Of a stretch of DNA of 60,884 bases, positions 20,022-33,384 are shown one piece after another; the first letter of the stretch is position 1, and each line of letters opens with the position of its first letter. The position numbers and the translations under genes were made by a program. Source of the stretch: Deltaproteobacteria bacterium (lineage in GTDB: Bacteria > Desulfobacterota > Dissulfuribacteria > Dissulfuribacterales > QOAL01). Location of the stretch: NCBI GenBank assembly GCA_024275145.1, contig JAJRZR010000025.1, positions 1 to 60,884 of the forward strand, given 5' to 3'. Below the pieces are notes generated by a model that saw only the letters and a program-made list of their open reading frames with translations, ran no database searches and had not been told where the DNA came from.

Positions 20022-20050
20022 TTGACACCCTGTCCTAAAAGATTTATATA
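20022..20050 (+). promoter_or_regulatory. Sigma70 promoter of the candidate small RNA
   Basis: TTGACA at 20022-20027 is a perfect -35 box. TATATA at 20045-20050 is a good -10 box. The spacer is exactly 17 nt. Transcription should start near 20057. No protein gene lies downstream on this strand before a terminator. Confidence 0.75.
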
Positions 20051-20056
20051 TGCACA

Positions 20057-20168
20057 TACAAAATCGACATAACAGTTGCCCCTGCTGGCCCTCTGTACCA
20101 TCTCCAACAAAGACGACCAACATACCCACCTCCATCCTTCTTTGAACCAGCAGGGGCATTTATTTTTT
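20057..20168 (+). ncRNA. Candidate small RNA with C-rich loop and intrinsic terminator
   Basis: The predicted transcript is about 112 nt. TGCCCCTGCTGG (20077-20088) pairs perfectly with CCAGCAGGGGCA (20147-20158), and TTTATTTTTT follows at once (20159-20168), as in a Rho-independent terminator. The 58-nt loop (20089-20146) is very poor in G and rich in C and A. It contains CCCACCTCCATCCTTCTTT, which is complementary to ribosome-binding sites (CCTCC core). This is the design of trans-acting small RNAs that block translation. I do not recognise a known family. The end overlaps the last codons of convergent mltA. Confidence 0.65.
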
Positions 20169-21398
20169 GTCTGTATTGGATTCCCTTGGAACAAAAACGA
20201 ATAACTCTCCTGGCCTTTTTAGGGTACTGGCAATCTTTCCTGCTTTTTCACCTGTCCCACAGTAGAGATCAAGTCGGTATGGACCCTTGATGGCACCTCC
20301 CGTGTCCTGCGACAGGACAAGGCCGGAGAAGGACTGTAGCCCCTCTTGAACGTCTGAGGTGTCAGCCGGGGCAGGGATATCGAGGAAATAGAGTCCTCCC
20401 AGGGGATAAATCCCCTGGTCCAGGGCTACCGAGGTCATTGGCACCAGTACCTGTCCGGTTTTGCCAACCGGCCCGTGTTCTTCCCATCTGAAGAAGATAT
20501 ATCTTGGGTTGATGCGGCATGCCTCCTGGAATTGTTCCGGATGCCTTTCTGCCCACCGTCGTATTCCTGGCCAATGGGCGTCGGATGGCTTCAATATGCC
20601 TTTGTCAATCAACCAGCGTCCCATGCTGTGATATGGGCGCCCATTGCTGGCAGCATAATGAATAAACCTTTTGGAACCATCAGGGAATTCCAATATGCCC
20701 GAGCCCTGGATGTGGAGCAAGAGCCCGTCTACGGGTGATTTCAACCAGGCAAGTACCGGGGTGTTTTTCAGGGGATTCCGATAGTCAATCTCCCATCTCG
20801 TATAATATGGGACCATGTTGTGGCCATTGATACGGCCCCATAGTACCCTGTCCGGCAGAGTGTCATCAAACTCCCTCAGGTTGATACGGACCAAATCGGC
20901 CGGAATACCATAAACTGGATAGGGATAATGATTGGTCCGTCTGGGGGATGCCTTTATTTCCGGTTCAAAATAACCTGTAACCAACAAGGATCCACGTTTC
21001 ACGTGGAACCCTTCAACATGATTGTTGAGTCGGTAAATACGAAAGGTTTTCTGGATCACCTCATGGAGTTCTCCTGGGGCCATGCCATGGCCTATACATC
21101 GTTTAAGCCTTAAGAGTGCCTGGCGCATGGCAGGGACCGGGATGGTATCCTTTCCGAAATGCATCCGTTCATTGTCGGCCCTTGTTGCCAGAAAGGCGAT
21201 ACTCCTGTCCAATGCCTGTTGTAACCTTTCCGGCCTTTCAGGGAGCAAGGGGCCGGGCAAATCCTGTAATCTGACCTCGGTAAAGAGCGTGGGCTTTCGG
21301 GAGGGCAGCTCGAATTTGATAAACCAGAACAGGATGGCGATCGATGCCGCCAGTATCAATATCCAATAGCGGCTGTTGCGGAATCCAGTACCCAGCAT
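20160..21398 (-). CDS. mltA: Membrane-bound lytic murein transglycosylase A
   Basis: Protein of 412 aa. One N-terminal membrane anchor (about 12-28) is followed by the MltA domain (VTGYFEPEIKASPRR near 140) and the C-terminal 3D domain with DTGGAIKGPYRLDLYCG, which contains the catalytic Asp. It cleaves peptidoglycan glycan strands to anhydromuropeptides in the periplasm. No lipobox is visible, so it is anchored by a helix rather than lipid. It starts 3 nt after the malate dehydrogenase stop, so the two genes are co-transcribed. Confidence 0.93.
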   Translation of the reverse strand: MLGTGFRNSRYWILILAASIAILFWFIKFELPSRKPTLFTEVRLQDLPGPLLPERPERLQQALDRSIAFLATRADNERMHFGKDTIPVPAMRQALLRLKRCIGHGMAPGELHEVIQKTFRIYRLNNHVEGFHVKRGSLLVTGYFEPEIKASPRRTNHYPYPVYGIPADLVRINLREFDDTLPDRVLWGRINGHNMVPYYTRWEIDYRNPLKNTPVLAWLKSPVDGLLLHIQGSGILEFPDGSKRFIHYAASNGRPYHSMGRWLIDKGILKPSDAHWPGIRRWAERHPEQFQEACRINPRYIFFRWEEHGPVGKTGQVLVPMTSVALDQGIYPLGGLYFLDIPAPADTSDVQEGLQSFSGLVLSQDTGGAIKGPYRLDLYCGTGEKAGKIASTLKRPGELFVFVPRESNTDKK

Positions 21399-32767: not shown

Positions 32768-32861
<94 letters not shown>

Positions 32862-32926
32862 ATTTTTGTTGCGAAGAAACAACCTGAATGCGTATATCGA
32901 GCGATACTCCCATATAAAGGTTTGTG

Positions 32927-32955
32927 TTGACTAATATGGTATTATAAGAGTATAC
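32927..32955 (+). promoter_or_regulatory. Possible promoter between the two tRNA-Ser genes
   Basis: TTGACT (32927-32932), a 17-nt spacer and GTATAC (32950-32955). It would drive the second tRNA-Ser and the SRP RNA with a leader of about 200 nt. The -10 box is weak. The rest of 32862-33161 shows nothing else. Confidence 0.3.
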
Positions 32956-33161
32956 AGTGACGCTGATTATGCGTATAGTAAATCGGTTTTTACCGTATCT
33001 GCATCCATGGCCAGCAGGTATTTATCTACCATTGAGTTATACGGAACGGCCGGGCCCAGCTTTGTATTCAGAGGCGTGATTGTATCAGGGCTATGGTCGG
33101 AGTAAAGGCCCTGGATGGATACATGCAGGAAAAGACGCCCTCCAAATGGGATTGATAAATA

Positions 33162-33254
<93 letters not shown>

Positions 33255-33280
33255 TAAAGAAATGTGTTAGCTCAGACCTT

Positions 33281-33384
33281 TGATAGCCGGGTCCTGCGCA
33301 ACGAAACCCTGCGAACCCCGCCAGGTCCGGAAGGAAGCAACGGTAGCAGGGCCCTTCGTGTGCCGCAGGGGTGCCTGGCTATCA
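33281..33384 (+). ncRNA. ffs: Signal recognition particle RNA (small bacterial type)
   Basis: A hairpin of about 104 nt is closed by TGATAGCC and GGCTATCA. The conserved apical domain has CAGGTCCGGAAGGAAGCA, including the GGAA tetraloop, and the facing GGTAGCAGGG. Seven T residues follow directly (33385-33391) and form the intrinsic terminator. It binds Ffh to target membrane proteins. It lies between tRNA-Ser and dnaX, a common bacterial position. Confidence 0.96.

Follow-up and report, generated by a model that had tools for sequence, protein, structure and literature searches.

A predicted C-rich non-coding RNA with a strongly conserved loop in two classes of Thermodesulfobacteriota

The window (the whole stretch of 60,884 nucleotides analysed here, from a vent-type sulfur bacterium) carries a promoter, a long stem-loop and a U-rich tail on the + strand, located between the convergent mltA gene, which ends at 20160, and a DUF4390 gene that is followed by a gene for an NtrY-like kinase. 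Only the final few bases of mltA overlap with it, and no gene lies downstream in the direction of the RNA. Elsewhere in the window, positions 32768-33383 hold two tRNA-Ser genes and then a small SRP RNA, all on the + strand. The features of the locus are as follows.

20022-20050, + strand: sigma-70-type promoter as a whole, identified from the sequence and the conserved -35 box in homologues
20022-20027, + strand: -35 box TTGACA, from the sequence
20028-20044, + strand: promoter spacer of 17 nt, from the sequence
20045-20050, + strand: -10 box TATATA, from the sequence
20057-20168, + strand: predicted transcript of about 112 nt, its ends inferred from the promoter and the U-rich tail, its strand from the G-U pairs of the stem
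20077-20088, + strand: 5' arm of stem P1, TGCCCCTGCTGG, from the fold and compensatory changes
20089-20146, + strand: C-rich, G-poor loop of 58 nt, from the sequence and the identity between families
20096-20108, + strand: loop block 1, the ACCATCTCCAACA region, from alignments; its CUC.A core is invariant in 32 sequences
20113-20137, + strand: loop block 2, ACGACCAACATACCCACCTCCATCC, from the alignment; its 3' part, AUACCCACCUCCAYCC, is common to both clades
20127-20133, + strand: anti-Shine-Dalgarno heptamer CACCUCC, inside this 3' part of loop block 2
20147-20158, + strand: 3' arm of stem P1, CCAGCAGGGGCA, from the fold and compensatory changes
20159-20168, + strand: U-rich tail TTTATTTTTT adjoining the stem and resembling a terminator, although the loop has 58 nt, from the sequence

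The initial annotation spoke of a textbook sigma70 promoter. TTGACA, the 17-nt spacer and TATATA are indeed present, but the description is slightly overstated: the -10 box is missing the usual last T, which leaves 10 of 12 consensus matches and is the reason why a strict consensus scan did not list the promoter. An exact TTGACA was found upstream of 33 of 43 homologues and, by alignment, upstream of the G001 copy too. The full 12/12 consensus occurs in two of the 43 homologues, and in 18 of them the complete promoter outscored shuffles of the same composition (p <= 0.05). A conserved element like TTTTAGTTATCGAGTCAAAATT, possibly a regulatory site, was observed upstream of the RNA in Thermodesulfatator-like genomes (L109-L111, L128-L134).

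The perfect 12-bp pairing of stem P1 and the scarcity of G in the 58-nt loop (24 C, 17 A, 13 T and 4 G) had been noted before, and both were confirmed at the coordinates listed above. The folding energy of the predicted 112-nt transcript was -25.9 kcal/mol (z = -4.3), with none of 200 shuffles as good, and the predicted probability of being unpaired was at least 0.9 across CCCACCUCC in the loop. A loop of 58 nt is an unusual size for an intrinsic terminator. The U-rich tail is kept within the order to which the window belongs and is weaker in a second class of the phylum.

A BLAST-type search detected one copy of the RNA in each of 28 out of 60 related genomes. A covariance model built from 23 of these 28 copies recovered the full-length RNA from 28 of the 46 genomes in the window's order, plus three further matches there that are short terminator-like hairpins, and also reached four genomes of another class of the phylum. 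With a second model that took in these four, 15 full-length copies were found among 41 genomes of the second class, together with one weak additional match without the loop motif. In one family (f2), no member gave a convincing match, even at permissive settings, so its genomes appear to have lost or replaced the RNA, to lack it in their assemblies, or to carry a diverged form. Public contigs with matches belong mostly to metagenome-assembled genomes of Deltaproteobacteria, Thermodesulfobacteriota, Desulfobulbus and Thermodesulfatator, alongside scattered matches in other phyla. The latter, and a match in one viral contig, lie inside long open frames and share the loop motif only, and we regard them as chance; ordinary terminators account for the short matches, about 48 nt long, in other genomes. 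Searches of phage, plasmid and E. coli collections gave no match. Judged by its distribution, the RNA family has been passed down in two or more classes of Thermodesulfobacteriota (Desulfobacterota), and the single-contig genomes of some carriers point to the existence of cultured strains. The covariance-model search in related genomes had been proposed in the initial annotation, which had made its case depend on the conservation of promoter, stem and loop in relatives; this conservation proved to be strong.

The locus also bore out the earlier impression that the RNA belongs to no known family. At the gathering cut-offs of Rfam 15, no family was found in the window at the RNA or at five homologue loci; a mir-133 match in a permissive scan (14.6 bits against a cut-off of 55.5) was dismissed as chance. 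Searches of an open-access collection of papers turned up no description of the RNA. As far as these searches show, the family is previously undescribed, and the small RNAs of Thermodesulfobacteriota have been little studied.

The sequence of the loop is far better conserved than the neighbouring proteins. Nucleotide identity of the loop between families of the order is mostly 80-95%, reaching 93-95% between the families nearest in loop sequence and falling to 60% in the most distant one (G028), while identity between families is 37-49% for the adjacent MltA proteins and 27-55% for those of DUF4390. Where the loop reaches 93-95%, MltA identity is only about 39-49%. In the same genomes, the 12 bases 5' of the stem are only loosely conserved. 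The core kept across both classes comprises CUC.A and AUACCCACCUCCAYCC, from which two or three copies depart slightly, and the heptamer CACCUCC is present in 32 of 32 aligned sequences. An internal UCU/AGA mini-hairpin was considered as a general feature of the loop and was not supported; an extra hairpin of 7 bp is clear in one genus-level group.

Could the stem-loop have arisen by chance, or be a by-product of a gene for a small protein? Short open frames do exist, since C-rich sequence has few stops: an ATG frame at 20050-20145 opens upstream of the predicted transcription start, and a TTG frame at 20076-20204 has no ribosome-binding site. However, loop lengths among homologues range from 53 to 63 nt in steps that are not multiples of three, which excludes a coding frame on either strand, and ATG is absent from nearly all homologues. 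The initial annotation, which saw no reading frame here, was thus right in substance. The stem covaries as well: among 32 distinct sequences, compensatory changes on both sides were observed in 8 of 11 counted stem pairs, pairing was maintained in 99.7% of alignment cells and dropped to 44-61% when the arms were slid against each other, and the covariation score was reached by none of 500 shuffles. Deviations within the stem are G-U pairs, which would appear as A-C mismatches on the opposite strand; therefore, the RNA is on the + strand. With a covarying stem at a single conserved locus, a protein gene or chance hairpin has a negligible probability in our judgement, and we are nearly certain that the RNA gene is real.

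Another reading makes the hairpin a cis element, either an mltA antisense RNA or terminator, or a leader (attenuator) of the downstream gene. Its position gives this reading some appeal: in most families of the order the RNA occupies the place it has in the window, where mltA ends convergently; several genera of the family to which the window belongs have it immediately before a gene read in the same direction, whose product we take, from its sequence, to be a DUF4139-type protein; and in three of the four genomes of the second class examined it precedes a DnaJ-type gene (dnaJ). Yet it is the neighbours that differ between clades, whereas promoter, stem and loop are constant, which argues for an independent gene and not for an mltA antisense element. 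An antisense RNA of mltA should lie opposite mltA wherever it occurs, but this RNA has other neighbours in a number of genera as well as in the second class. In the window, moreover, no gene of the same direction follows and the RNA shares only a few bases with mltA, and thus the earlier suggestion that the RNA may act on mltA mRNA was not sustained; since the RNA adjoins different genes in different clades, such action is not its general role. We consider a cis element very improbable. On sequence grounds, the locus is a gene in its own right: intergenic, present once per genome, equipped with a putative promoter and 3' end, and encoding a non-coding RNA of about 110 nt.

No Hfq match was obtained in any of 51 genomes from both clades (G000 and 50 others), although control genomes including those of E. 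coli and B. subtilis matched. Hfq thus appears to be missing from both clades, and any action of the RNA would have to be independent of it. The initial annotation had called for target prediction against mRNA start regions. Three genomes were sampled for this in stretches of 60 to 200 kb (samples of 49-162 genes), and the pairing energy of the loop was better with gene starts than with gene interiors. Shuffled loops were equally good, however, and global anti-Shine-Dalgarno pairing did not rise above their level. Searches for the complement of loop block 2, with up to 2-3 mismatches in 14 genomes, and of loop block 1 in 12 genomes revealed no extended target shared between them. Matches to the complement patterns were mainly the opposite strand of the gene itself, and the scattered rest lay mostly inside or antisense to coding sequence. 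A single extended mRNA target was accordingly discarded, there being no near-complementary site common to the genomes searched. The start of an open reading frame for an MscS-like (mechanosensitive-channel-like) protein in G243 (L242:564-592, GATGGAGGTGGGTATG) pairs with the loop at 15 of 16 positions; this match is isolated, with no counterpart seen in the other genomes searched.

The best single hypothesis, which we put forward tentatively and which may well be right, is that the RNA is an unreported Hfq-independent, C-rich trans-acting sRNA that blocks ribosome-binding sites. We favour it because CACCUCC, complementary to Shine-Dalgarno sequences, is invariant and predicted to be unpaired, because no Hfq gene was found in the 51 genomes, and because there are precedents for such action without Hfq: the C-rich loops of sX13 block ribosome-binding sites (PMC3771888), and the C-rich sRNAs RoxS/RsaE act on them (PMC4409812). 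The long loop, poor in G and unable to pair internally, would be held open by the strong stem, with AUACCCACCUCCAYCC and the UCUCCA block staying single-stranded. Once the RNA is transcribed, the most likely partners of both segments would be G-rich ribosome-binding sites in a number of mRNAs, where translation initiation would be blocked without Hfq. Of the original proposal of a trans-acting sRNA with an anti-Shine-Dalgarno loop, the RNA gene and the invariant, probably unpaired segment thus stand, while no conserved extended target was found to go with them.

Identity over some 45 bases of the loop exceeds what short seeds or generic anti-Shine-Dalgarno pairing need, and this counts against the sRNA that blocks ribosome-binding sites broadly; a partner that is a protein or part of the ribosome, or a small set of gapped targets, therefore has to be weighed against it. 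The main rival, possible though distinctly doubtful, is a protein- or ribosome-binding decoy, whose loop would copy the 3' end of 16S rRNA (CACCUCC) and titrate a factor reading that sequence, for example Era or the 30S platform, or some other binder of C-rich RNA. The agreement between families over about 45 loop bases is rRNA-like, and the failure to find an extended mRNA target, together with the equally good pairing of shuffled loops with gene starts, fits a decoy. Era contacts GAUCACCUCC of 16S rRNA (PMC6738653), and the RNA keeps CACCUCC. Era is thus a concrete candidate partner, by seven shared bases only; the AUCA part of the site is missing, the decoy has no known protein partner, and chance could account for such a heptamer in a loop rich in C. 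The most far-reaching version, that a loop of about 45 nt under rRNA-like constraint mimics the 16S rRNA 3' end, has the small subunit or a ribosome-assembly factor as its binding partner, and serves as a general translation regulator in Hfq-less thermophilic sulfur bacteria, strikes us as quite improbable. Rather unlikely, too, is a trans-acting sRNA whose specific targets would be a single mRNA or a handful, with each pairing spread over several short stretches separated by gaps, in place of a broad anti-Shine-Dalgarno regulator. The two or three separate invariant blocks of the loop would suit such pairing, as would the G243 channel-like start, but that candidate was seen in just one of the genomes searched and no common target emerged with up to 2-3 mismatches.

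Trans-acting sRNAs normally evolve fast. A loop that is nearly unchanged across families whose neighbouring proteins are under half identical, in two classes without Hfq, points to strong constraint, and the identity of its partner would reveal either sRNA regulation in Hfq-less bacteria or a new contact with the translation machinery. The closest parallels are sX13, RsaE/RoxS and the 3' end of 16S rRNA. The RNA resembles sX13 of Xanthomonas in its C-rich loop within a stable stem and, presumably, in not needing Hfq, sX13 pairing with G-rich motifs near start sites (PMC3771888); unlike sX13, which consists of three short stem-loops, two of them with CCCC, it has a single long stem closing one loop of 58 nt, and its invariant sequence is far longer. 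RsaE/RoxS of Staphylococcus and Bacillus direct C-rich regions against Shine-Dalgarno sequences, are conserved between distant genera and depend little on Hfq (PMC4409812), whereas the RNA described here has no Rfam match, another architecture and another phylum as its home. With the anti-Shine-Dalgarno 3' end of 16S rRNA it shares CACCUCC, but these seven bases are all that the two have in common, and the RNA is not a ribosomal RNA.
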